Of a stretch of 36,479 nucleotides of DNA, positions 59 to 33,797 are shown in pieces; positions within the stretch are counted from its first letter, which is position 1, and every line of letters starts with the position of its first letter. Below the pieces are notes generated by a model. That model had not been told where the DNA came from. It made no database searches and saw only the letters and a list, made by a program, of their open reading frames with translations. The stretch spans positions 1 to 36,479 of the forward strand of contig CADBYC010000040.1 of assembly GCA_902798755.1 (NCBI GenBank), in the 5' to 3' direction. The position numbers and the translations under genes were made by a program. This stretch comes from an uncultured Ruminococcus sp. GTDB lineage: Bacteria; Bacillota; Clostridia; Oscillospirales; Acutalibacteraceae.

Positions 59-82
59 GGACGACCAATGGTCGTCCCTACG
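59..82 (-). repeat. REP-like palindrome with GTAG head, copy 1
   Basis: On the minus strand this reads CGTAG followed by the palindrome GGACGACCATTGGTCGTCC. The same design recurs at 7065-7088, 7234-7257, 16417-16441 and 16504-16525. A GTAG tetranucleotide 5' of a short palindrome is the known layout of REP elements moved by RAYT transposases, and one such transposase is encoded at 6937-7431. Confidence 0.7.
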
Positions 83-106
83 GAAATGTGGGATTCCCTA
101 TTTGGG

Positions 107-139
107 GGGATTGCCACAGGCTAAAGCCCTCGCAATGAC
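107..139 (+). repeat. Dispersed 'GGGATTGCCAC..CGCAATGAC' repeat, copy 1
   Basis: The element begins gggattgccac, has a small internal inverted repeat (ggctaaagcc) and ends cgcaatgac. Related copies are at 3192-3230, 10418-10453 (opposite orientation) and 10701-10736. All four are intergenic. They look like small non-autonomous palindromic elements; no protein is encoded. Confidence 0.65.
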
Positions 140-153
140 TATTTTAATAAAAT

Positions 154-189
154 AGCGCTTACGGCTCGACCTTGAGCATCGTAAGCGCT
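154..189 (-). terminator. Rho-independent terminator of the hydrogenase maturation operon
   Basis: AGCGCTTACG and CGTAAGCGCT form a perfect 10-bp stem with a 16-nt loop. On the minus strand it is followed by ATTTTATT. It lies about 100 bp beyond the hydF stop codon and is the natural end of the minus-strand operon. Confidence 0.7.
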
Positions 190-290
190 GTTCTGTATTG
201 ATAAAACCATGGTACCGAGAGATTGGACTGTAAAACAACGATGAAGGAGCACAAAGAATCAAAAAACTCCTCACTCCTAACTCCTCACTC

Positions 291-1475
291 CTAACTGATC
301 ACAGGCTTCAGCGCTCTGTCCAGTATCCCGTTCATCGCGGCGATGGCGATGCCGTAGTTGACCATCGGGACTTCCGCTTCCTTTGCCGTGCGCTGGCGGT
401 GCTGCATCTCCTTTTCGTTGAGCATACAGCCGCCGCAGTGGATGACGACCTTATACGCGGAAAGATCGTCGGGGAACGTCCCGCCTGAGGTAAAATCATA
501 GCTGATAGCCGCTTTAGAATAGTCCTTTATCCACGCGGGAAGCTTGACGGTACCGATATCCCCGCACTGACGGTGATGGGTACAGCCCTCTGAGATCAGC
601 ACCCGGTCGCCGTCTTTCAGGCTTTTCAGAGCGTTTGCGCCTTTGATCAGCGTACCGAGGTCGCCCTTGTAGCGGGCAAAGAGGATAGAGAACGAGGTCA
701 TCGGGATATCCTCGGGCGTGTCGGCGGATACCTTTTTGAACGCCTGTGAATCCGTGATGATCAACGCGGGCTTTTCGGTCAGCCTGCCGAGGGTCGCCGT
801 CAGTTCTTCGGGCTGACAGCAGATAACGGAGCAGTGGTGGTCGAGCAATTCGCGCAAGGTCTGCTGTTGAGGCAGGATAATGCGCCCCTTGGGAGCGGAT
901 TCGTCGATCGGAATGACCAGTATCACGGTATCGCCCTGTCGGATTAAATCGGCGACGATCTGCTTCTCCTTGGTATCGGCATGAATGATATGCGCGAGGC
1001 GTTCTTTGAGCTCCCCTATCCCCTCGCCTGTCAGGGCGCTGATCAGCATTTCATGCTCGTTCAGATGCGGGAGCTTCGGCATAATATCGCTTTTATTATA
1101 CGCGATCACGTACGGCAATTTACGGGAAACGAACTCATTGAGCAGTTTTTCGTCCGCCTGTGACAGACCGACGGTACCATCCACGACCAGCACGGCGATA
1201 TCCGTCTTGCGCAGGACTTCCTTTGTCCGCTCTACTCTGAGCTCGCCCAGCGCGCCCTCGTCGTCAAAGCCGGGGGTGTCGATAATCACGACAGGACCGA
1301 GGGGCAACAGCTCCATCGTCTTTTTGACAGGGTCGGTGGTGGTGCCGAGAGTATCGGACACCACGGATATCCTCTGATTGGTGACAGCGTTCACGACGCT
1401 GGATTTGCCCGCGTTGCGCCGTCCGAAAAAGGCGATATGCGGACGGAGCGCGGAAGCAGTGGAATTAAGTGACAT
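291..1475 (-). CDS. hydF: [FeFe]-hydrogenase H-cluster maturation GTPase HydF
   Basis: HydF is the scaffold and carrier GTPase on which the 2Fe subcluster of [FeFe] hydrogenase is assembled and from which it is delivered; it acts in the cytosol. The 394-residue protein has an Era-like GTPase domain with a P-loop GRRNAGKSS (18-26), DTPG (66-69), NKSD (127-130) and a SALTGEG G5 motif. The C-terminal part carries the family's cluster ligands: C298-x-H300, then about 45 residues to HCGGC (346-350). The length is normal for the family. The ATG has an AGGAG site 5 nt upstream. It is last in a minus-strand operon after the TM1266-like gene and hydG. The TAG stop lies inside a short repeat (see findings). 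hydE is not in this window and must lie elsewhere if the pathway is complete. Confidence 0.95.
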   Translation of the reverse strand: MSLNSTASALRPHIAFFGRRNAGKSSVVNAVTNQRISVVSDTLGTTTDPVKKTMELLPLGPVVIIDTPGFDDEGALGELRVERTKEVLRKTDIAVLVVDGTVGLSQADEKLLNEFVSRKLPYVIAYNKSDIMPKLPHLNEHEMLISALTGEGIGELKERLAHIIHADTKEKQIVADLIRQGDTVILVIPIDESAPKGRIILPQQQTLRELLDHHCSVICCQPEELTATLGRLTEKPALIITDSQAFKKVSADTPEDIPMTSFSILFARYKGDLGTLIKGANALKSLKDGDRVLISEGCTHHRQCGDIGTVKLPAWIKDYSKAAISYDFTSGGTFPDDLSAYKVVIHCGGCMLNEKEMQHRQRTAKEAEVPMVNYGIAIAAMNGILDRALKPVIS

Positions 1476-1598
1476 AGTAACTCCTGCATAGCCTTCCCCT
1501 TGAGGGGAAGGTGGGCAATTCGCCGAACAAGGCGAATTGATCGGATAAGGTGGAAACGTTTTCTCCTCATCCCTTGAATCGATAGAACGGAAAGGCTT

Positions 1599-3047
1599 TT
1601 AGAATCTGAAATCTCTGTGGTTGGAGCTCTTGATATCGAGGATATTCTGCTCAGCGATCGCGCGCACCTTATCCTTCGGGATGCGCTTGAGCTCTTTCTC
1701 GATCATCTCAAAGCCGATCTTCTTCGTCTCGGGAGAAGCGTAGTCGACCAGATACTCGGCAAGGGTCATCAGCGCGTTCGGATGACAGCAGTTGAGGATC
1801 TGACCCGACTTGCACAGCGACATGAAGCGGTCGCCTGTTCTGCCCTCGCGGTAGCAGGCGGTACAGAACGACGGAATGTGTCCGCTCTTCATCAGCCAAG
1901 CGACGACCTCGTCAAGCGTACGCTGGTCGGAAACGTCGAACTGCTCGGTGTCATGCGGGCGATCTTTCTCTGCATAGCCGCCGACAGAGGTACGCGAGCC
2001 GCCGGATACCTGAGAGATACCCAGCCGCAGGAGCTTGGAGCGCACCTGCTCACTCTCTCGGGTAGAAATGATCATGCCCGTGTAAGGCACCGCCAGACGG
2101 ATACAGGCGGTGATCTTCTCAAAGGTCTCGTCGTCGATACCACCGTCGAACTCGTCGGGGTCGATATCGTCGGCACGCTTGACGCGCGGCACGGAGATCG
2201 TGTGCGGACCTACGCCGTGAACGGCTTCGAGATGCTCCGCGTGCATGAGCAGTCCCGCAAATTCATATTTGTACATTTCCAGACCGAACAGAACGCCTAA
2301 GCCCACGTCGTCGATACCGCCCTCCATCGCACGGTCCATCGCCTCGGTGTGATAGTCATAATCATGCTTGGGACCTGTGGGGTGAAGCTGGAGATAGCTC
2401 TCCTTGTGATAGGTCTCCTGGAAGAGGATATAGGTGCCGATACCCGCGTCCTTGAGCTTGCGGTAATTCTCGACGGTGGTCGCGGCGATATTGACGTTGA
2501 CGCGGCGGATCGCGCCGTTCTTATGCTTGATCGAGTAGATCGTGTCGATGCACTCGAGGATATACTCGATCGGGTTCATCACGGGGTCCTCGCCGCTCTC
2601 GATGGCAAGGCGCTTGTGACCCATATCCTGCAGAGCGATAACCTCCGCTTTGACCTCTTCCTGGGTCAGCTTCTTGCGCGGAATGGTCTTATTCTTCAGA
2701 TGATAGGGGCAGTACAGACAGCCGTTGACGCAGTAGTTCGACAGGTACAGCGGCGCGAAAATGACAATACGGTTGCCGTAGAAGGCGAGCTTGATCTCCT
2801 CGGCGATCTCATAGATACGCTTTGTAACCTCGGGATCCTCACAGGCGAGCAGGACGGACGCCTCGCGGTGGGTCAGTCCGTTACAGCGGCAGCCGCCCGC
2901 GGTCGGGATCGGACGCGACTTTTCGAGGATCTCGTTGATCAGCTCCATATTGTTCTTGTTCTTTTCGGCATAAGCCAAGGTCTCACGGATCTCTTCATCG
3001 TTGATGAATTCTTCCGCATGCAGTGATTTCGGGTTATAGATAGCCAT
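1599..3047 (-). CDS. hydG: [FeFe]-hydrogenase maturation radical SAM tyrosine lyase HydG
   Basis: HydG cleaves tyrosine to p-cresol and dehydroglycine and turns the latter into the CO and CN ligands of the H-cluster. The radical SAM motif CxxxCxxC is seen at C106, C110 and C113 (SNYCVNGCLYCPYH). The C-terminal auxiliary cluster motif CX2CX22C fits C395, C398 and C421 within CTACYREGRTGDRF. The 482-residue length is typical. The ATG follows GGAG by 7 nt. It sits between the TM1266-like regulator and hydF on the same strand, the usual maturation arrangement in Clostridia. Confidence 0.96.
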   Translation of the reverse strand: MAIYNPKSLHAEEFINDEEIRETLAYAEKNKNNMELINEILEKSRPIPTAGGCRCNGLTHREASVLLACEDPEVTKRIYEIAEEIKLAFYGNRIVIFAPLYLSNYCVNGCLYCPYHLKNKTIPRKKLTQEEVKAEVIALQDMGHKRLAIESGEDPVMNPIEYILECIDTIYSIKHKNGAIRRVNVNIAATTVENYRKLKDAGIGTYILFQETYHKESYLQLHPTGPKHDYDYHTEAMDRAMEGGIDDVGLGVLFGLEMYKYEFAGLLMHAEHLEAVHGVGPHTISVPRVKRADDIDPDEFDGGIDDETFEKITACIRLAVPYTGMIISTRESEQVRSKLLRLGISQVSGGSRTSVGGYAEKDRPHDTEQFDVSDQRTLDEVVAWLMKSGHIPSFCTACYREGRTGDRFMSLCKSGQILNCCHPNALMTLAEYLVDYASPETKKIGFEMIEKELKRIPKDKVRAIAEQNILDIKSSNHRDFRF

Positions 3048-3065
3048 TGTAATTCTCCTTTTGAT

Positions 3066-3152
3066 TTGAATGTCATTCCGAGGAGGGCAAATATCGCGTT
3101 TTTATAAGCGATTGCTGCTGAAATTGCCCGACGTGGGAATCCCCTAGTCATT
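3066..3152. repeat. Imperfect inverted element 'GTCATTCCGAGG ... GTGGGAATCCCC'
   Basis: In the hydG leader region gtcattccgagg and gtgggaatcccc bracket about 60 bp containing inverted gcgatt/aatcgc-like segments. A related arrangement (tgtgggattcccatgg...tcggaatgac) is at 10482-10525. It is a second flavour of dispersed intergenic element and is non-coding. Confidence 0.45.
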
Positions 3153-3191
3153 AATGCCGTTTTGTTTATTCAGAATAGAACAGCGCTGCTT

Positions 3192-3230
3192 TGTGGGATT
3201 GCCACAGCCCCTAAGGGGCTTCGCAATGAC
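3192..3230 (+). repeat. Dispersed 'GGGATTGCCAC..CGCAATGAC' repeat, copy 2
   Basis: tgtgggattgccacag is followed by the palindrome cccctaagggg and then cttcgcaatgac. It has the same ends as copies 1, 3 and 4, with the palindromic centre CCCCTAAGGGG shared with copy 4. It lies just downstream of the TM1266-like gene. Confidence 0.65.
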
Positions 3231-3247
3231 GTTTTATGAAAAAAATA

Positions 3248-3493
3248 TTAAATAGACGCGTACGCCGTCTTGACGCTCACGCCGCTCAGCGAGCCGATCT
3301 TTCCGCTCAAGGCGGCGATCTTGTCCTGCGGCGCGTCGACCGCTACGCTGATCAGCCGCACGTTGCGCTCCTTATACGGAACGCCCATACGCCCTATGAC
3401 GTAGTCGGAAAAGCCCGACAACAGCTCGTTGATCTGAGCGGTAGAGCTGTCGTCCTCTACGATAATGCTGATCACAGCGACTCTTGTATCCAA
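3248..3493 (-). CDS. TM1266-family iron-only hydrogenase system regulator
   Basis: This is an 81-residue small ACT/NikR-C-like alpha-beta protein. It begins MDTRVAVISIIVEDDSS and contains GRMGVPYKERNVRLISVAVDAP, the pattern of the TM1266 (putative iron-only hydrogenase system regulator) family, which is encoded next to hydE/hydF/hydG in many anaerobes. The family is believed to bind a small ligand; the ligand is unknown. The frame has no ATG: it opens with TTG at 3493, about 9 nt after AAGGA. It is first in the minus-strand operon before hydG. Confidence 0.85.
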   Translation of the reverse strand: MDTRVAVISIIVEDDSSTAQINELLSGFSDYVIGRMGVPYKERNVRLISVAVDAPQDKIAALSGKIGSLSGVSVKTAYASI

Positions 3494-5016: not shown

Positions 5017-5064
5017 TAAGATAAGCAAGCGCTGTACACACAGCGCTTGTTTCTTTTTGAAAAG

Positions 5065-5152
5065 TATTTAAAATATTTTTGAAATACCTATTGACAAACA
5101 GCTTTCCGCTGTATATACTTACTTCAAACAGCTATTTAAAAATATTTTGAAA
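5065..5152 (+). promoter_or_regulatory. Promoter with flanking paired operators, sdpR-like gene
   Basis: A near-perfect promoter, TTGACA (5091-5096), 17 bp, TATACT (5114-5119), is bracketed by two almost identical A/T-rich boxes: TATTTAAAATATTTTTGAAA (5065-5084) and TATTTAAAAATATTTTGAAA (5133-5152). The downstream box lies within a wider inverted repeat, TTCAAA (5123-5128) / TTTGAA (5146-5151). The likely ligand is the ArsR-type repressor encoded immediately downstream, acting on its own promoter. Confidence 0.7.
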
Positions 5153-11440: not shown

Positions 11441-11499
11441 TTGTAGTACCATGCGTTCATGGATATATCTATTTTACAACATAACAATACAGATTGCAA
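11441..11499. promoter_or_regulatory. Overlapping divergent promoters of pduL and the uracil-DNA glycosylase
   Basis: Minus strand: TTGCAA (11494-11499), 17 bp, TAAAAT (11471-11476), reading into pduL. Plus strand: TTGTAG (11441-11446), 17 bp, TATATC (11464-11469), reading into the glycosylase gene. The two promoters interleave, so only one polymerase can occupy the site at a time. Confidence 0.55.
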
Positions 11500-11526
11500 C
11501 AGCAAATAAGAATTAAGGTGAAGAAA

Positions 11527-12102
11527 ATGTCTACTTGGCAGGAAATCGAGAACAAGTGCCTGAGCTGCAAAAGCTGCCGCCTGTGTGAAAAGCGGAAAAA
11601 CGTCGTTTTCGGCGTAGGCAACCGACAGGCGAAGGTCATGTTCATCGGCGAGGGTCCGGGCGAGCAGGAGGATATTCAGGGCGAGCCGTTCGTCGGCAGA
11701 GCGGGACAGCTGCTCGATAAGATGCTGTACGCCGTCGATCTCGACCGTCACAAGAATGTCTATATCACGAATATCGTCAAATGCCGACCGCCCATGAACC
11801 GCGACCCGCAGGAGGACGAGCAGGACTGCTGTATCGGCTATCTCAGGGAGCAGACGCGCCTGATCCGCCCGAGGATCATCGTCACGCTCGGCAGGATCGC
11901 GGGCATGAAGCTGATCAAGCCCGATCTCAGGATCACCCGCGAGCACGGCACGATCATCGAGCGCAAGGGGGTATTCATGATGCCGATGCTCCACCCCGCG
12001 GCGCTGCTGCGAAATCAAAGCCAGATGGAAGGCGCTTTCAATGACTTTTTGATTCTCAGAGAGAAAATAAAAGAGGTCTGTCCCGAAGTCTATGGTTTAT
12101 AA
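11527..12102 (+). CDS. Uracil-DNA glycosylase, family 4 (iron-sulfur type)
   Basis: This enzyme removes uracil from DNA as the first step of base excision repair. The 191-residue protein carries the family-4 features: N-terminal cluster cysteines CLSCKSCRLC, motif GEGPGEQEDIQGEPFVGRAGQLLD, NIVKCRPPMNRDP, and a late HPAALLRNQ. The remaining cluster ligands probably come from ECCxxY-like EQDCCIGYL. The start is the ATG at 11527 preceded by AAGGTGAAG; an in-frame TTG 33 bp upstream has no site. It is divergent from pduL. Confidence 0.9.
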   Translation: MSTWQEIENKCLSCKSCRLCEKRKNVVFGVGNRQAKVMFIGEGPGEQEDIQGEPFVGRAGQLLDKMLYAVDLDRHKNVYITNIVKCRPPMNRDPQEDEQDCCIGYLREQTRLIRPRIIVTLGRIAGMKLIKPDLRITREHGTIIERKGVFMMPMLHPAALLRNQSQMEGAFNDFLILREKIKEVCPEVYGL

Positions 12103-16545: not shown

Positions 16546-16865
16546 AAAAAAGTCCTCCCATCCCAAGGGACGGAAGAACCGCGGTACCACCCAAATTTCC
16601 GAGAACAAGTATTGTTAAGGGTCGTTAGGCAACCCTCCGGCACGCGACACACGTGTCTCGTGCCACCTCCCTTAGGAAAGGGAGGCTAAGCCTCGGACGC
16701 TCGTCGACCTGTAACGGGGTCAGCCGTCAGAGCCTACTGTGCGTGTTCAGCTCTGCCGCTCGGGAGTGAACTTCGCTCAGGCTCTCTCCGTCCGTACTTC
16801 CAGCCGATGATACAGACTCTCTGTCGAGGTTACAAGAGTTACTCTCTCCGTCACAGCGTTATCAA
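16546..16865 (-). promoter_or_regulatory. T-box riboswitch of pheST
   Basis: The minus strand carries the conserved T-box GGGTGGTACCGCGG (16579-16592). It overlaps a terminator/antiterminator region that ends in a hairpin (TCTTCCGTCCC / GGATGGGAGGA) followed by TTTTTT (16546-16551). Upstream is a structured Stem I region with AGAGAG motifs. A TTC at 16768-16770 in GCGAAGTTCACTCCC fits the position and sequence of a phenylalanine specifier. Uncharged tRNA-Phe would stabilise the antiterminator and allow pheST transcription. Confidence 0.9.
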
Positions 16866-23821: not shown

Positions 23822-25309
23822 TCACATATTATGAGCGATTGTGAAGCTTTCATCTTCTGCGGGGTATTCTCCTTCGGTATCCCCTTCGTCGCTCTCTGTA
23901 TTATTATTATTATCAGAATCGCTTGATAGTATTTCCGTGACCAGTCCCGCTGTGAGACCGATCAGCGCGCCGAGGTCGGCGCCGTTTTGCTCTGCCTGAA
24001 TACGTTTTCTGCGTTCTTCCTCGTCCTCGCTGTCGTCATCTATGATCCCAGAACGCGGCAGACCAGATAAGATACCAGCGCCGAGAGCGCAATTGCCGTG
24101 ATTGAGACTGCGATCAGGAGTCGTCGAGTTCGTTTCCTGAGACTGTCCAGCTGAGCCGTCAGCTTGTCCCGTTCCGTTTGAAGCGCCTGTGTGCAGTCCG
24201 AAATAAACTTCTCGCGACGCTTCCCATCCTGTTGCAACAGCTCCGAAATCTCTTTCGTCATCACCTGAGCTTTCTCCGAGAAGCTGTTCGCCATCTTCCG
24301 CATATACTCTTCTTCCGTCGCGACGGTCTGATTCAAAGACCGTTCCATATCCTTCTGCGTTGCCAGCTGTTTGATCAGCATATACAGCGTCGGCTGGAAC
24401 TGCACTGCTGTCCGCAGGAGCTCGATCTCCTCCTGTCTGCGGTCGTAAGGCATCGTCACGATCTTCAGCTCCTGCGCCGTCTCTATCTTTTCGAGATGTG
24501 CCGAATTCTTCGTGATCAAATCTTCGACCGTTTTGTTTGTCTGTCCTGTATTGGAACTCATGCTCCATCATCTCCTTTCGGTACTTTTCTTCGTGTAATT
24601 TGATGTCTCTGCATTTCATTCCGTTGGGGCAGGTGTAGGTGATGTATTTTCTTTCAGCCGTCCACCTGACTTGATACCCCAAACCTTCCATTTCCCTGAT
24701 AAAATCTTCTCTGGTCCCGCTTCTCTCCATCGCGTGATTGATCGTAGCCATCAGTCTGAACTTCCAACTCTCCCCTTTCATTGCGGCGCGGTATTCGCGC
24801 GTGGAGATATGCATACCGCCTCCGGTGTATGGTTCGAGTATACTCAACCCATGCGCTTGACAGATCTCGTCGTTCAAGGCTCGCAGCTTCTCCAATGTTT
24901 TCGGCGATTGTCGGAGCTTTGAGCCGTCCCGATAGGACACCGAGTTGATCACAAAATGCGTGTGCAGATGGTGGCGGTCAACGTGCGTTGTCACCAGTAC
25001 CTCATGACCCTGCCACGCGCGTTCGGCAAACTCTAACGCGACTGTGTGGGCTGTCTCGGGAGTGATCTTTTCATCGGGCGAAAAGCTCTGTTCATACTGA
25101 TAGAAAAACACGCCGCTCGCCTTACCGAAGCACTTCTTTGTCGCCATAAACTCCGTATATGAATTCTCTCCGTCGCACCCGATTCCCGATACATAACGCC
25201 GCCCCGAATCGGGATCAGTCACCTTGTAATCCTGCATACAGTAGTTGATCACACGCTTCATCACCGAGGCGCTTTGCCTGGTCTCGCGAATGTAATTGAG
25301 CGTAGCCAT
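23822..25309 (-). CDS. MOB-family relaxase
   Basis: The relaxase nicks the element at oriT and leads the strand during conjugative transfer. The 495-residue protein has the histidine triad HVDRHHLHTHFVINS (H113, H114, H116, H118) in an N-terminal domain of about 240 residues. It also has a likely early catalytic tyrosine (Y6, Y23 or Y28) and a C-terminal low-complexity acidic tail rich in D, E, G, S and N. About 520 bp of that tail also encode a second protein in another frame (24040-24561). The ATG overlaps the mobC stop (TGATG), so the two are coupled. A transmembrane-like ALIGLTAGLVTEIL lies near the end. Confidence 0.9.
   Translation of the reverse strand: MATLNYIRETRQSASVMKRVINYCMQDYKVTDPDSGRRYVSGIGCDGENSYTEFMATKKCFGKASGVFFYQYEQSFSPDEKITPETAHTVALEFAERAWQGHEVLVTTHVDRHHLHTHFVINSVSYRDGSKLRQSPKTLEKLRALNDEICQAHGLSILEPYTGGGMHISTREYRAAMKGESWKFRLMATINHAMERSGTREDFIREMEGLGYQVRWTAERKYITYTCPNGMKCRDIKLHEEKYRKEMMEHEFQYRTDKQNGRRFDHEEFGTSRKDRDGAGAEDRDDALRPQTGGDRAPADSSAVPADAVYADQTAGNAEGYGTVFESDRRDGRRVYAEDGEQLLGESSGDDERDFGAVATGWEASREVYFGLHTGASNGTGQADGSAGQSQETNSTTPDRSLNHGNCALGAGILSGLPRSGIIDDDSEDEEERRKRIQAEQNGADLGALIGLTAGLVTEILSSDSDNNNNTESDEGDTEGEYPAEDESFTIAHNM
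24040..24561 (-). CDS. Coiled-coil membrane-anchored protein nested in the relaxase gene
   Basis: It has 173 residues in a different frame from, and wholly inside, the relaxase gene. It is mostly helical with long coiled coils (ETAQELKIVTMPYDRRQEEIELL and FISDCTQALQTERDKLTAQLDSL) and one C-terminal TM helix (LLIAVSITAIALSALVSYLVC). An AAAGGAG site lies 10 nt before its ATG. Here the relaxase frame is low-complexity and acidic while this frame is well structured, which argues that this frame is real. The layout recalls ColE1-type mob loci, where mbeB and mbeD lie inside mbeA. It may act as a mobilization helper anchoring the relaxosome to the membrane. Confidence 0.78.
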   Translation of the reverse strand: MSSNTGQTNKTVEDLITKNSAHLEKIETAQELKIVTMPYDRRQEEIELLRTAVQFQPTLYMLIKQLATQKDMERSLNQTVATEEEYMRKMANSFSEKAQVMTKEISELLQQDGKRREKFISDCTQALQTERDKLTAQLDSLRKRTRRLLIAVSITAIALSALVSYLVCRVLGS

Positions 25310-25614
25310 CAGCGCATATTCTCCAATATCAAATCATAGATTTTGCGCTGACCTTCCATGACTTCGGTGAAATCAGGCGGCAGATGACCGCCCGAATTCA
25401 GTCGCCGCGCGATCTGATTGAGGTTGTTGCCGATGCGTTTCAGTTCTGTAATCACGGGAGTGTAATCGGTACAGTCAATCTGTAACCGCTGTGAGCAGGT
25501 GATGATAAATTCATTTACAGATAGGCCCGCTTCCTTTGCTTTCCGGATAATCATGTTCTTTTCCTTTGGTGTAAGCCTGATAGATAATGTGATATTCCTT
25601 TTTCGTTTTGCGAT
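25309..25614 (-). CDS. mobC: MobC-type relaxosome accessory protein
   Basis: MobC proteins help the relaxase melt and nick oriT. From AKRKRNITLSIRLTPKEKN the protein matches the ribbon-helix-helix N-terminus, followed by the MobC core ITELKRIGNNLNQIARRLNSGG. No ATG, GTG or TTG stands at the expected start. A perfect GGAGGT lies 6 nt before an ATC codon (25614-25612) exactly where relatives have Met. ATT one codon earlier, or a TTG at 25668 without any site, are alternatives. From ATC the product is 101 residues. It overlaps the relaxase start by 1 nt. Confidence 0.85.
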   Translation of the reverse strand: MAKRKRNITLSIRLTPKEKNMIIRKAKEAGLSVNEFIITCSQRLQIDCTDYTPVITELKRIGNNLNQIARRLNSGGHLPPDFTEVMEGQRKIYDLILENMR

Positions 25615-25669
25615 AATAACACCTCCATAATGGTTGTATAAGTGGGTGCGGGCTTCTGCCCGCAACAAA

Positions 25670-26183: not shown

Positions 26184-27944
26184 TTATTCACTACCTATCA
26201 CAGCGTCGGCTTTGCTTTTTTCCAGCGCGATGAAGCGCATATTCTTTCCGCAGTAGCGAACGGAAACCGTGTTGCCTGACGCGGTCGTTTTGATCAGATT
26301 TTCTTCTGCCAGCGCTTTGACTAAAGCCTTTGCCGAAAAAGGAAAACTCTCGCCCTGCTCACCGCACAGCTTCTTCACCGCCGAATGTGCCAGCTCCTTA
26401 TTGAGGTAATAGTAATCGTCATCCTGACAGCCGATATATCCGGGCGGGAACGGATCGAATTCCTTGGGGCGGTTGCGCTCGGTGATCAGCACCTTACCGC
26501 CCTCTATCAGCGACCAGAGCTTGCGGATAAACACATGCGCAGGCTTGTCCTGCTCCACCTTCTCTGATTGGATATCCGCGAGAGCGTACAGCAGTTTTCG
26601 GAACTCATCCAAATTGAAATCTTGTTCCTCCTGTTTGATGACGCCGATCTCTTTAAGAAATTGCAGAAAGAACCGCATGCCGATCATCAGGCTCGCGACG
26701 GTCTCGGGCAGGCGACCGTGGCAGGTCAGGTTGTGGCAGTGATAATCGGAACGGAACTGCTTGTACAGCTTTTCGAGCTCTTCCCGAAGCATTGCGACGT
26801 GATCATCGTCTTGCAAATACCGACGTTTCAGCCACTGTGTGTAGGCGTACATGGTACGGCGATACGCGCCGTTTTGCGCGTCGTTCTGGCACAAGGTCAG
26901 ATAAGAAAGGTCAACGTCGCCCTCTTTCAGCTCCAGCGCGAAGTACCGCGCCGAACCACTCTCACCGATATCGGGGCTCAGCTCGCCTGTGATGATGGCG
27001 TTGCTCTGGGGCGGTCTGCTTTCCATTAATGTAGAATCGGAGCGCAGTCGCGCGCGTCCCGTACGGTCACCGTAGGCGCGCATGATTTTCTGCGCGGTCG
27101 TGGTGAGCTTCTTCATCTCGAGGTTGTCGCTCGGGTAGAAATCGTCGATACAGGTCAACACATCCTTGAGTGCGAACGAATTGGTTGTAATACTGTTCGC
27201 CGTATCCTGGAACGACATTGGCAGATCAGTGGAGGTGAACTTACCGAAGAAGCTGAGGATCAGCGCGGCGATCGTACTCTTTCTGGTACCTGTCCGACCT
27301 GTGAGGAAGAGGACAAACTTCGGCATACAGCCCGCCTGTTTGAGGAACTCATTGAGAGGCGTGAGAAACGCAAACGCCAGAAGCGGATGGATCACGCTGG
27401 AGGGCGCAGGCGGTTTCTCAAACAGATTGTACGCGTCGATCGGATCGTACAGATCGTAATAACTTTCTCCGCAATAATGCTGCAACTTGCCTTTCAAGGT
27501 TACATTGAGACTGTCGTCGCCCGGCAGAAGATAATGCCACTCGCCATCGATTTTCTTCCAGCCGGTCACATGATACTCTGTGAGCTGTTCGGCGTTCTCG
27601 GAGGTCGTCTGGATGTAGTAGCGCAGTTGATCCTTGCACCGCTGACCGACCTCGATGATGCACTTCGCGCCCCACTTGTCGAGAAGCCAGTTGAAGTTGC
27701 TCAGATCGGCGCCGTTTACCTCGACAGGCGGGAGCGTACTGCCGTCTGCATGAATACCGCTGAGCACCAGCGTCTTTTCCGTCACCGCGCCGTCGTCGAC
27801 CGTTTTCTCGCTGACGATACGCGGGACGAAGTTACAGACCTTCGTGGTGCTGCTCCCTCGCTTTGAGACCGTTGTAACGTAGAGACAGTTATCCCTGATT
27901 TCATAGGGATAGCTGTCCTGATTTGAATTCTTTTCTTTGGACAT
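26184..27944 (-). CDS. DUF927-type P-loop ATPase of the mobile element
   Basis: This is a 586-residue protein from the ATG at 27944 (GGGAGG 7 nt upstream; a 10-codon extension has no site). A Walker A motif TGRTGTRKST (215-224) and a Walker B-like TCIDDFYPSD (D267, D268) lie in a helicase-like core of the DUF927 family. Such cores often follow a primase in phage and mobile-element replication proteins. No primase (DnaG/AEP) domain is seen in its N-terminal 180 residues, which are beta-rich. It probably drives element replication or unwinding. It is first in the minus-strand set and is preceded by a long structured leader. Confidence 0.8.
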   Translation of the reverse strand: MSKEKNSNQDSYPYEIRDNCLYVTTVSKRGSSTTKVCNFVPRIVSEKTVDDGAVTEKTLVLSGIHADGSTLPPVEVNGADLSNFNWLLDKWGAKCIIEVGQRCKDQLRYYIQTTSENAEQLTEYHVTGWKKIDGEWHYLLPGDDSLNVTLKGKLQHYCGESYYDLYDPIDAYNLFEKPPAPSSVIHPLLAFAFLTPLNEFLKQAGCMPKFVLFLTGRTGTRKSTIAALILSFFGKFTSTDLPMSFQDTANSITTNSFALKDVLTCIDDFYPSDNLEMKKLTTTAQKIMRAYGDRTGRARLRSDSTLMESRPPQSNAIITGELSPDIGESGSARYFALELKEGDVDLSYLTLCQNDAQNGAYRRTMYAYTQWLKRRYLQDDDHVAMLREELEKLYKQFRSDYHCHNLTCHGRLPETVASLMIGMRFFLQFLKEIGVIKQEEQDFNLDEFRKLLYALADIQSEKVEQDKPAHVFIRKLWSLIEGGKVLITERNRPKEFDPFPPGYIGCQDDDYYYLNKELAHSAVKKLCGEQGESFPFSAKALVKALAEENLIKTTASGNTVSVRYCGKNMRFIALEKSKADAVIGSE

Positions 27945-28200
27945 AGAAGTCCTCCCTTCAAATATAGATTTCACTTATGATGAAATATCGTAAAAAGTTG
28001 CATAAAAGTATGCAACCAACACCCTTTATCCGTGTCTGTTATCTAAGCCCAATCCTGCTCGACCAAAGCTCGTATGTCATCAGCCCTCACCCCGCTCAGC
28101 ATAAGCGTCATGGCAGGGCGGTACTGAAGTACAGCACGGTAGGTTATTCGATTTTCAAGGTGCGGCTATTGACCCAACATCCAAAATCCGTTATTCAGCA

Positions 28201-28298
28201 AAACAAAAAAGCCGCTTTGATGGTAAACATCATGTCACTGATAGACTTCTCCCTTGGTCTTGCGATTAACTTCGCAAGGGAGTGAATAATCAAGCGGC
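28201..28298 (-). terminator. Intrinsic terminator with long internal loop
   Basis: GCCGCTTGAT and ATCAAAGCGGC close a loop that itself folds (CTCCCTTG/CAAGGGAG). The T-rich tail TTTTTTGTTTTG follows. It lies about 260 nt upstream of the DUF927 ATG and so must be read through, or bypassed by another promoter. Confidence 0.65.
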
Positions 28299-28583
28299 AG
28301 ATAGGATGTCTACGCATTAAAGCGGCTCCAAGTTGCTCTCGTCCTTGGTTGTAGGGACTATTGAATTGTCTTTGATTGTCTTGCTCTCTCGCTCATATCC
28401 CTTCGCGATATAACGAAATCAGGCGGCCATCCGAGATCTACGCTGTCCACACGGTCTCAAAGCTCTCACGTTGATTTACCTACCGTCCCAGGCTCCAATC
28501 ATATTTCAAAAGGAGTGGCGTACTGGTTATATCAGGATATTTCGTAAAATTACAGCAATCAGATTGAAACATTAAGTTTCGGT
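28201..28583 (-). ncRNA. Candidate structured RNA or attenuator leader in the mobile element
   Basis: A transcript from the promoter at 28590-28618 would run about 370 nt to an intrinsic terminator. Its 3' arm is ATCAAAGCGGC (28211-28221), followed by TTTTTTGTTT (28201-28210). Two upstream segments can pair with that arm: GCCGCTTGAT (28289-28298, 10 bp with one bulge) and AGCCGCTTT (28319-28327, 9 bp perfect). Between them lie further stems, such as CTCCCTTG/CAAGGGAG and CTTGCG/CGCAAG. This is either a stand-alone RNA or a regulated leader of the DUF927 gene. I do not recognise the family. Confidence 0.6.
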
Positions 28584-28589
28584 AGTATG

Positions 28590-28618
28590 ATCTTAACACA
28601 TCCAAACTTTGTTGTCAA
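28590..28618 (-). promoter_or_regulatory. Consensus sigma-A promoter
   Basis: TTGACA (28613-28618), 17-bp spacer, TAAGAT (28590-28595) on the minus strand. It is the strongest promoter visible in the mobile element and points into the structured region. Transcript start near 28583. Confidence 0.75.
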
Positions 28619-28829
28619 TACTGTTTTTGAATTTTTTCGAAATTATTTTCGATTTCCAATCAGGTGTTTTCTTTGATTGACGGCGCAAATTTTGACGCCT
28701 GAGAAATGCCGAGAAATCCTCTGTACAGAGGGAAAAAGATATCCGATCACGGATTCGGTTTGGTTTTATAAAGAGAAACAGCGGGTCAGACGCGCCTGTA
28801 CGCGCCCGATCTGCTGTTCATTGTATTAT

Positions 28830-29096
28830 TCAGTTCTTTTCTGCCATGAGTTCAGCCATTAGCTTCGCGCCGAGACGGAAGCCTTGCAGGAATCCATCAC
28901 GCTCGGTCAGCGTGATTAGCTTATTGTATCGCTCCGAAAGCTCCGCTATTTTTTCTTTCTGACCTTTATCAATCAGGCTATCACCTAATGCTTCTTCTAT
29001 TTCTGTAACTTCTGACAAGGCTTTTCTTACCTCAACACTCTGCGGTTCATCGGTCGGTCTAATGTTTCCATAGTATAATTCCTCAAGTATACTCAT
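28830..29096 (-). CDS. Small DUF6809-like protein
   Basis: It has 88 residues from the ATG at 29096 (AAGGAG 9 nt upstream; the in-frame extension upstream has no site). It begins MSILEELYYGNIRPTDEP and is otherwise helical with a heptad-like LSEVTEIEEALGDSLIDKGQKEKIAELSERYN and a C-terminal FLQGFRLGAKLMAELM. This matches my recollection of the DUF6809 group, which is frequent on clostridial mobile elements; not searched. It has its own promoter, TTGACT (29145-29150), 16 bp, TATTGT (29123-29128). Function unknown; a small dimeric helical regulator is plausible. Confidence 0.7.
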   Translation of the reverse strand: MSILEELYYGNIRPTDEPQSVEVRKALSEVTEIEEALGDSLIDKGQKEKIAELSERYNKLITLTERDGFLQGFRLGAKLMAELMAEKN

Positions 29097-32185: not shown

Positions 32186-32579
32186 GGGTAACCTCCTTGT
32201 TCAAAGCCCTCAAACAGCGATGAGGGCGCCGGGGATATATGCGTTCGATAATTCTCAGTAGGAATTATAATGCCGAGATCAGCTCCTTGAGCTTTGCCAT
32301 GACGGAGCCTGCGTCCGCTCTGCCTCTGCTCTGCTTCATAACGTTGCCGAGCACCGCCATAAGAGCCTTTTCCTTGCCGCTCTTATAGTCTGCTACAGCC
32401 GCGGGCATAGCGCTGATCGCGTTCTGACAATACTCTGTCAGGGTCGCGTCGTCAAGGCCTGCCATATCGCTCTCGCTGACGAACTTGGTCACGGGCTTGC
32501 CGGTATCCAGCATCTTTTCAAGAGCCGTCTTGGCGAGGTTGTTCTTCAGCTTTCCGCTCTCCAGCAGCTTACAGAGCTC
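32157..32579 (-). repeat. Duplicated gatB-tail block, copy B
   Basis: Partner of 29640-30072. Its downstream end is the intact start of the dockerin gene (MKRSIAFLL...). Its upstream end continues into more gatB sequence and then the kinase fusion. The order (gatB tail, terminator, signal peptide) is probably ancestral in this copy. Confidence 0.85.
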
Positions 32580-33797
32580 TCCAAGCTGTTCGGGAGTTGT
32601 CCTGATATCCAGAGCCTCCTTGTCGGCCTCTGTCTCCAGCCTGCGGAAGATGGAACCGATGATGAAGTTTGAAGCGGTCTTAGGAGACTTCAAGCCCTCT
32701 GAGGCCTTGTCAAAATACTCTGAGATACTGCGGTACTTGGTGAGCTGGGCGGCGTCCTTCTCCGGGATGCCGTACTCCGCCGTATACCTCTCAAACTTCT
32801 GCTCAGGCAGCTCAGGGAGGCGGGAGCGCAGCTCCTCTTTCTTTTCTCTCGGAACATGAATTGTAACCAAGTCCGGCTCGCGGAAATAGCGGTAATCGTG
32901 AGCGTCCTCTTTGCTTCTCATTGAGGAGGTCGTACCGGTCGCGTCGTCATACCTGAGGGTCTCCTGAACGACCTCCCCGCCGCACATATCCTTGATTCGC
33001 TTGCGGGTGTTCTCCATACCGATGTGCGAGCGTCCGTCGTTCTTCGTTTCATTCACGTCAAAGCCCACGCCGTCGTCCTGTATGATGACTTCATAGGCGT
33101 CGTCTGTCTCTCTTGTGCTTATCGTCACGGTTCCGCCCTTTTTCTTCATCCCCACGCCATGCTTGACAGCGTTCTCAACAAGCGGCTGTACGGACAGCTG
33201 CGGCAGGACGAAATCGGTAGTTTGGATGTCATACTCGATATTCAGCTTATCGGCAAATCTCAGCTTTTCGATGTACAGATACTTCTTTAGATGCTCGAGC
33301 TCCTGTGTGAACGGCACGGGAGCCGTCTGCTTGAGCGAATCCATATTGCCGCGCAAATAGTCCGAGAAGGTGATCGTCGCGTCATATGCGGTCTCGGGAT
33401 TTAGCTTGCACAGTATCGCGATAGAGCTCAACGCATTGTACATAAAGTGCGGACGTATCTGGCTGACCATCACGTTCACCTTGGCTTCATACAGCTCGCG
33501 CTGTACCCGCTGATAGCGGATCGCTTCCTTGTACTGTCGGCTGAAGTCCATGCCGAACCGTACCATCTGATAAATGATCGTGATCGCAAGACCGATTTGC
33601 AGATATTTGGATCCGGAGATATGCAGATAGAAGTCAAACATATCGATCATCAGAAAAATGCCCAGCGGCAGCCATGAAATCAAATAATCAATGAGAACAA
33701 AACCCTTTTTGCCGCGGATCTCGATACACAGCAGCACGGTCATGATCGCAGCAAGCACGATCACGGCAAGATATCTGATCCCTGCGGTCGCCATCAT
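32265..33797 (-). CDS. Chimeric ORF: truncated LytS/YesM-type histidine kinase fused to the C-terminal half of GatB
   Basis: It has 510 residues. Residues 1-275 are a membrane histidine kinase: three or so TM segments, the phospho-acceptor H117 in SQIRPHFMYNALSS, the N box VQPLVENAVKHGV, and DDGVGFD (241-247). From about residue 275 the sequence is the C-terminal half of GatB: EVVQETLRYDDATGTTSSMR, SKEDAHDYRYF, then the helical/YqeY-like domain to the end. The kinase lacks its last strands and GatB lacks its catalytic N-terminus. In-frame kinase sequence continues upstream to about 33955 with no start codon before a stop, so the kinase is truncated at both ends. Probably a pseudogene product. 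Confidence 0.8.
   Translation of the reverse strand: MMATAGIRYLAVIVLAAIMTVLLCIEIRGKKGFVLIDYLISWLPLGIFLMIDMFDFYLHISGSKYLQIGLAITIIYQMVRFGMDFSRQYKEAIRYQRVQRELYEAKVNVMVSQIRPHFMYNALSSIAILCKLNPETAYDATITFSDYLRGNMDSLKQTAPVPFTQELEHLKKYLYIEKLRFADKLNIEYDIQTTDFVLPQLSVQPLVENAVKHGVGMKKKGGTVTISTRETDDAYEVIIQDDGVGFDVNETKNDGRSHIGMENTRKRIKDMCGGEVVQETLRYDDATGTTSSMRSKEDAHDYRYFREPDLVTIHVPREKKEELRSRLPELPEQKFERYTAEYGIPEKDAAQLTKYRSISEYFDKASEGLKSPKTASNFIIGSIFRRLETEADKEALDIRTTPEQLGELCKLLESGKLKNNLAKTALEKMLDTGKPVTKFVSESDMAGLDDATLTEYCQNAISAMPAAVADYKSGKEKALMAVLGNVMKQSRGRADAGSVMAKLKELISAL

Follow-up and report, generated by a model that had tools for sequence, protein, structure and literature searches.

A conserved rod-forming RNA of mobile elements as a candidate transcription attenuator ahead of a DUF927-like gene

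What is the role of a promoter-like site that is followed not by a gene but by a long non-coding stretch and a terminator, directly ahead of a mobilization operon? This arrangement is found at 28201-28618 of a 36,479-nucleotide stretch of DNA from an uncultured Ruminococcus sp. (contig CADBYC010000040.1; hereafter the window), for which a preliminary description, made from the letters alone, had proposed an undescribed structured RNA or attenuator leader whose terminator 3' arm (Y) can pair with either of two upstream segments (X1 and X2). Our analysis indicates that this RNA is a real, conserved family without a match in Rfam, and we see about an even chance that it is a cis-acting attenuator of Clostridia mobile elements in which a rod-shaped terminator is the default. 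At the level of sequence, a promoter-like site, a terminator, a conserved rod, coevolving helices and a recurrent place in the relatives are all apparent. The promoter, the RNA, the terminator and the downstream genes of the window share the minus strand, and the parts of the RNA are as follows, with their basis in brackets.

28590-28618, minus strand: promoter-like site TTGACA-17-TAAGAT with an extended -10 (promoter scan)
28315-28329, minus strand: X1, outer 5' strand of the rod, GGAGCCGCTTTAATG (folds, partner scoring)
28305-28313, minus strand: 5' strand of helix P2, GTAGACATC, whose partner GATGTTTAC lies 5' of Y (folds)
28289-28298, minus strand: X2, GCCGCTTGAT, with Z as its partner in the rod and Y as its alternative partner (folds, partner scoring)
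28249-28282, minus strand: apical hairpin P4 (folds)
28236-28242, minus strand: Z, the inner partner of X2, weak in the window (folds, partner scoring)
28211-28221, minus strand: Y, terminator 3' arm, ATCAAAGCGGC (sequence and folds)
28205-28210, minus strand: terminator T run, six T directly 3' of Y (sequence)

The promoter, the approximately 370 nt without a convincing gene that separate it from the terminator, the terminator itself and the complementarity of Y to both X2 and X1 (AGCCGCTTT, 28327-28319) were all located where the preliminary description had placed them. The promoter-like site (28618-28590) matches the consensus at 10 of 12 positions and carries the extended TG. A scan of 27900-28900, which used a sigma-70-like consensus only and underlies all promoter statements for the window, returned four promoter-like sites on the two strands versus 1.5 expected from shuffles, and this comparison is only moderate evidence for the promoter. 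An intrinsic terminator, as required of an attenuator, lies between promoter and gene as judged by sequence and fold.

The terminator structure of the window exceeds chance, as seen from the z of -6.4 for its 123-nt part and from the relatives. Folding of these 123 nt (28331-28209) pairs X1 with Y at -48.2 kcal/mol (z -6.44, none of 200 shuffles reaching this energy), and when X1 is removed (28300-28209) X2 pairs with Y at -31.6 kcal/mol (z -4.34, again none of 200); for the full 383 nt, z is -2.37 and 2 of 100 shuffles are as low. Both of the alternative pairings form when the fold is compared with and without X1, but X1:Y is far stronger (by about 16 kcal/mol), and equal competition of the two segments is not supported in the window. 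The two pairings also share one T run, so that exchanging one for the other would not on its own relieve termination.

The stretch is conserved beyond its own element, in a family of 19 members including the window (loci are given L numbers), carried by mobile elements from several families of one bacterial order. This count leaves out five near-copies (L033-L037) and nine further matches (L050-L058), some of which may be distant members, and it contains the near-duplicates L030/L039, L040/L041 and L042/L043. The window stretch matches its own genome once, and among 98 genomes (own included) it has one further good match, L003/L008 (84% over 275 nt), as well as matches to the promoter region only in two more (L004 and L005, judged to be chance). 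Extending the search to 161 genomes of the genus gave matches in 4 and brought in L015, in which only the core matches, plus one chance match. L015 led to L017 in a phage collection, the IrrE-like protein of L017 to L025 and L030 (a Vescimonas fastidiosa plasmid record), and a sequence pattern to the five IMG/VR contigs L033-L037, which are nearly identical to L030. A covariance model (R1), built from six sequences and applied with E values up to 0.1, had matches in 21 genomes among 295 from the order, namely the own copy, ten loci below 1e-9 (L039-L048), L049 and L050-L058; L049 is a weak match (E 0.0017) that we accepted as a member by its sequence and neighbours. Applied to the 161 genus genomes, R1 had matches in 5 and contributed L063 and L061.

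Other searches gave little. A scan of genome contigs yielded five stretches, one of which is the G037 contig (L012), and L031 and L032 hold nothing similar by eye. Comparison of the window stretch with plasmids and phages in a distant mode gave nothing useful, nor did viral pattern scans. A DNA search of the order matched 2 of 394 (the own copy and one chance match), a pattern search across the class matched 1 of 391 (the own copy), the L015 stretch had short matches only in 23 plasmid records, and the L015 core recovered the known copies and one chance match in the 161 genus genomes. Among the matches listed for the window core versus phages, the L017 record came up again and the rest had E values of 2 or worse. 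Rejected as members were L062 (a plain terminator), L064 (the opposite-strand reading of the L015 rod) and L007, L016 and L021 (coding or unrelated sequence, judged by eye).

As had been supposed, no Rfam family matches at 28201-28618. At the gathering score, scans of the window and of 10 of the 18 other members with Rfam 15 gave no match at the RNA, the only matches being T-box and pemK RNA elsewhere. In E-value searches, nothing above threshold was obtained for the window stretch or for the parts of L040 and L063 that were submitted. Among the top 10-15 of 60 to 3,306 papers listed per full-text literature search, no title or opening of an abstract describes this RNA. Six terms were absent from the main text of a study of candidate structured RNAs from human microbiomes (PMC8040213), whose supplements lay outside the search and may include this RNA.

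The relatives share more than sequence. In 18 of the 19 members (16 of a set of 17, then L063 and L061), the stretch from X1 to Y adopts a long rod as its lowest-energy fold, with X1:Y outside, followed by helix P2, X2:Z inside and the apical hairpin; the exception, L049, forms X2:Y in place of the rod. The 16 rods of the set of 17 range from -48.5 to -63.5 kcal/mol. For both X1:Y and X2:Y, own partners score better than swapped partners, so that the stems coevolve and the lack of covariation that would have spoken against a structured RNA was not observed. Partner support for X2:Y is present over 14 of the 19 members together and absent in the window's branch, the own pairing ranking 11th among 14 partners in the window, 11th in L008 and 14th in L063. 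Of what was first proposed, a structured RNA with an attenuator-like layout and coevolving stems holds up, but the competition of X2 for Y is not supported in the window's branch.

When X1 is kept open in the 17 members, the best folds lie between -32.3 and -46.8 kcal/mol (L049, -28.7). Read by eye, 4 of the 17 (window, L008, L025, L049) form X2:Y. In the other 13, X2 stays with Z, and Y either pairs with a segment just 5' of X1 (8 of 17) or is essentially open (5 of 17: L040, L041, L045, L046, L048). A candidate partner of X1 beyond the terminator (D) gave a Fisher p of 1.3e-5 over 11 selected copies of 16 (controls 0.009 and 0.70), with a single-copy p below 0.05 in 5 of 16. It is not suggested in the window, L008, L063, L061 or L049, and X1:D was rejected as an antiterminator of the window (p 0.71).

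These folds also suit an intrinsic terminator that is ordinary apart from its unusual length, stops transcription arriving from upstream and regulates nothing, as both Y pairings terminate and Y has a terminator-like partner in 12 of the 17 folds with X1 open. We nevertheless find this rather unlikely, considering that in ten relatives the RNA separates genes that run in the same direction and lie close together, and that outside the window's branch the capacity for X2:Y is kept through compensatory changes.

The surroundings of the RNA in the relatives were called by tblastn with reference proteins, some of which came from the scored loci themselves; L025 and L030, moreover, were found through the IrrE-like gene, which is one of the scored neighbours. 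A small zinc-ribbon-like gene lies 5' of the RNA at 17 of 19 loci (all except the window and L061), a sigma-70-region-4-like gene lies 3' of it at 15, and an IrrE-like gene was matched at 15; the Pfam scores of the zinc-ribbon-like and IrrE-like proteins are under the cut-off. The RNA ends 37-52 nt before the sigma-like match in 10 of 15 loci and 91-348 nt before it in the other five, and no promoter-like site was found between rod and gene in the two relatives scanned. A terminator within an operon would need regulated or partial read-through. The Shine-Dalgarno region is also paired in all seven relatives folded into the gene, and a pemK RNA (Rfam) follows downstream in 8 of 10 loci scanned.

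The module also exists without the RNA. The gap between related genes in L028 and L029 holds a simple terminator and no X1, and L023 (1398-1462, minus strand) has the IrrE-like/zinc-ribbon/sigma-like order by eye with only about 64 nt at the place of the RNA. Conversely, L061 has an L030-type rod, with zinc-ribbon-like, IrrE-like and sigma-like neighbours absent within the 2.2 kb examined. An alignment of the zinc-ribbon protein matched 3 of 245 class genomes (L023, and L022 and L024, which look unrelated) and 44 stretches of viral contigs, none of them confirmed; the protein itself gave nothing useful versus plasmids. The idea of a mobile palindrome was rejected on account of the zinc-ribbon-like neighbour in 17 of 19 loci.

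Two further elements were seen near the sigma-like gene. A second conserved stretch (GAGUGCGCAAUCAGGCAAGGAUACAUAUA...), whose ends pair, lies between it and the rod in L008 (~11455-11570, followed by a T run) and L063 (~1735-1840, near which Rfam gave a sub-threshold match only). A short frame ending Y-P-stop, with the consensus W-x-x-x-[IVF]-A-[KER]-Y-P in most cases (by eye), lies 5' of the sigma-like gene in L017 (~2360-2420), L029 (~5063-5104) and L063, where it is downstream of the RNA, and 3' of the RNA in L046. The copy in L017 is followed by an inverted repeat that covers the next Shine-Dalgarno sequence. From its sequence, the frame may possibly encode an arrest peptide.

The window copy has a different setting, in which the upstream neighbour is a DUF6809 gene and relatives of the eight reference proteins were not found (best E 0.033). 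Downstream of the RNA are the following features.

27992-28016, minus strand: second terminator-like hairpin, GTTGCATA-CTTT-TATGCAAC-TTTTT, 5' of the DUF927-like gene (fold)
26184-27944, minus strand: DUF927-like gene, the first gene 3' of the RNA, with ATG at 27944 after AAGGGAGG, by eye (sub-threshold Pfam)
23822-25668, minus strand: NikA/MobC and relaxase (MobA/VirD2-like) genes (domain matches)

The second hairpin (28016-27992; z -3.1, 2 of 200 shuffles as low) is absent from the output of the pattern scan. The DUF927 match reaches 19.4 bits, under the Pfam cut-off of 22.6, and NCBIfam gave no match for this protein. The scan found no minus-strand promoter in the interval that separates the terminator from the DUF927-like gene, so the operon would most obviously be reached by read-through, and the RNA would then control the DUF927-like/mobilization operon itself. 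Elsewhere in the window, a single 510-aa frame (32265-33797, minus strand) matches histidine kinase and GatB domains and is either an odd fusion or an assembly join.

Replication genes of the plasmids pT181 and pIP501 are controlled by attenuators that respond to antisense RNA, and the long leader and terminators ahead of the DUF927-like gene invite this analogy. The scan found no antisense promoter facing the leader, however, the plus-strand promoter-like sites at 28564-28591 and 28593-28622 face away from the rod, and 15 of 19 members have a sigma-like gene 3' of the RNA instead; such control would be extremely unlikely.

Upstream of the rod, the window carries additional structure.

28340-28536, minus strand: 5' domain common to L008 and, divergently, L063 (alignment; limits by eye)
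28418-28475, minus strand: proposed hairpin of the 5' domain, loop UGGACA (comparison of three sequences)

This domain is seen in 3 of the 19 members (window, L008 and L063), and in L008 and L063 it lies after the zinc-ribbon-like gene and before the sigma-like gene. It might correspond to the aptamer domain that a riboswitch would place before its expression platform, although three sequences are too few to decide. It could instead be the working part of a stand-alone small RNA of about 380 nt that acts in trans or as a scaffold. The promoter-like site belonging to the window copy and the two terminator-like hairpins that precede the next gene would suit such an RNA, as would the compensatory changes of the hairpin across the three loci and the lack of the usual neighbours at L061. 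We regard this as fairly improbable given the position of the domain between two genes in L008 and L063, its restriction to three members and the instability of the hairpin in a fold of the window stretch by itself (z +1.15).

Could translation instead set the state of the terminator? The preliminary description had raised a leader peptide, MMFTIKAAFLFC, across the 3' arm. This turns out to be the end of a 40-codon frame (28317-28198, minus strand; ATG at 28317, 8 nt after GGAG) that spans the rod and the T run, and it has a counterpart (MMSTIKAALFCFL) in L008 and in none of the other 17 members, so the proposal is not supported for this peptide. In ribosome-mediated attenuation, a ribosome on a short frame after the GGAG of X1 would cover X1 and X2 and free Y. 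In 17 of 19 members the first four bases of X1 are indeed followed, at a distance of 5-14 nt, by an ATG, GTG or TTG, and in ten (L008, with 8 codons, L015, L017, L025, L040-L043, L045, L046) a 6-9-codon frame ends at the TGA of X2. This TGA belongs to X2, however, so that one frame in three would end there without selection. The frames otherwise vary in length and end, which led us to reject a leader peptide as a family-wide feature: besides the window, long frames are found in L048 and in L063 (at least 45 codons from an ATG 12 nt after the GAAG of X1, through rod and T run), L030, L039 and L047 have VKSS, L044 has a start then a stop, and L049 and L061 have no start. GGAG is also replaced by GGGG in L046 and by GAAG in L063. 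Some relatives may have a leader peptide; ribosome-mediated attenuation as such we judge very unlikely.

Attenuation with the rod as default could proceed as follows. Transcription would start near 28590 and produce the 5' domain first; the ~120-nt rod (X1:Y outer, X2:Z inner, apical hairpin) would then form, directly followed by the T run, and would halt RNA polymerase 5' of the DUF927-like/mobilization operon, with the second hairpin lying just before the gene. If a factor occupied X1, X2 would be held by Z and Y would be left without a good partner, as in 5 of 17 folds, opening the gate. Termination in the cell, control of read-through and the trigger are what we infer here, and the small zinc-ribbon-like protein encoded 5' of the RNA at 17 of 19 loci, the window not among them, is a guess as to the trigger. 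Several observations weigh against this scheme. In the folding models, only some members would lose the terminator if X1 were blocked; from the partner scores, competition between X1 and X2 for Y appears to fit other branches better than the window copy; D, which captures X1 in just one of seven folds, is not convincing; and a relative of the zinc-ribbon protein was not found in the searched part of the window's genome (~90% complete) with a weakly sensitive three-row profile. It is conceivable, and in our view doubtful, that the window element eavesdrops: its attenuator RNA would derive from a different class of mobile element, would have been placed ahead of its own DUF927-like/mobilization operon, and would be switched on when a co-resident helper element supplies its antitermination factor, for which the zinc-ribbon-like protein is a possible candidate.

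This work adds an RNA family without an Rfam match, residing in mobile elements and having defined helices. If the RNA is indeed an attenuator, regulatory and mobilization genes of gut elements would be gated at transcription termination, often joined by a paired Shine-Dalgarno region, and the small zinc-ribbon-like protein would be a testable candidate regulator.

How does this RNA compare with known systems? The T-box leader (RF00230) is likewise a cis-acting leader with a terminator; it has no match at 28201-28618, and a T-box leader is present in the window at 16563-16863 (minus strand, 100.5 bits). The pemK RNA (RF02913) is a structured RNA of the same mobile-element module, at a different place and without a match to the rod RNA. 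The trp leader controlled by TRAP, the targets of ANTAR proteins and the expression platforms of riboswitches are transcription attenuators controlled by proteins or ligands. Relative to these, the RNA described here is a long nested rod without a firm antiterminator or known sensor, and both of its Y pairings terminate. What it has in common with them is the layout, in which a promoter, a leader, pairings that would be mutually exclusive and an intrinsic terminator precede an operon.
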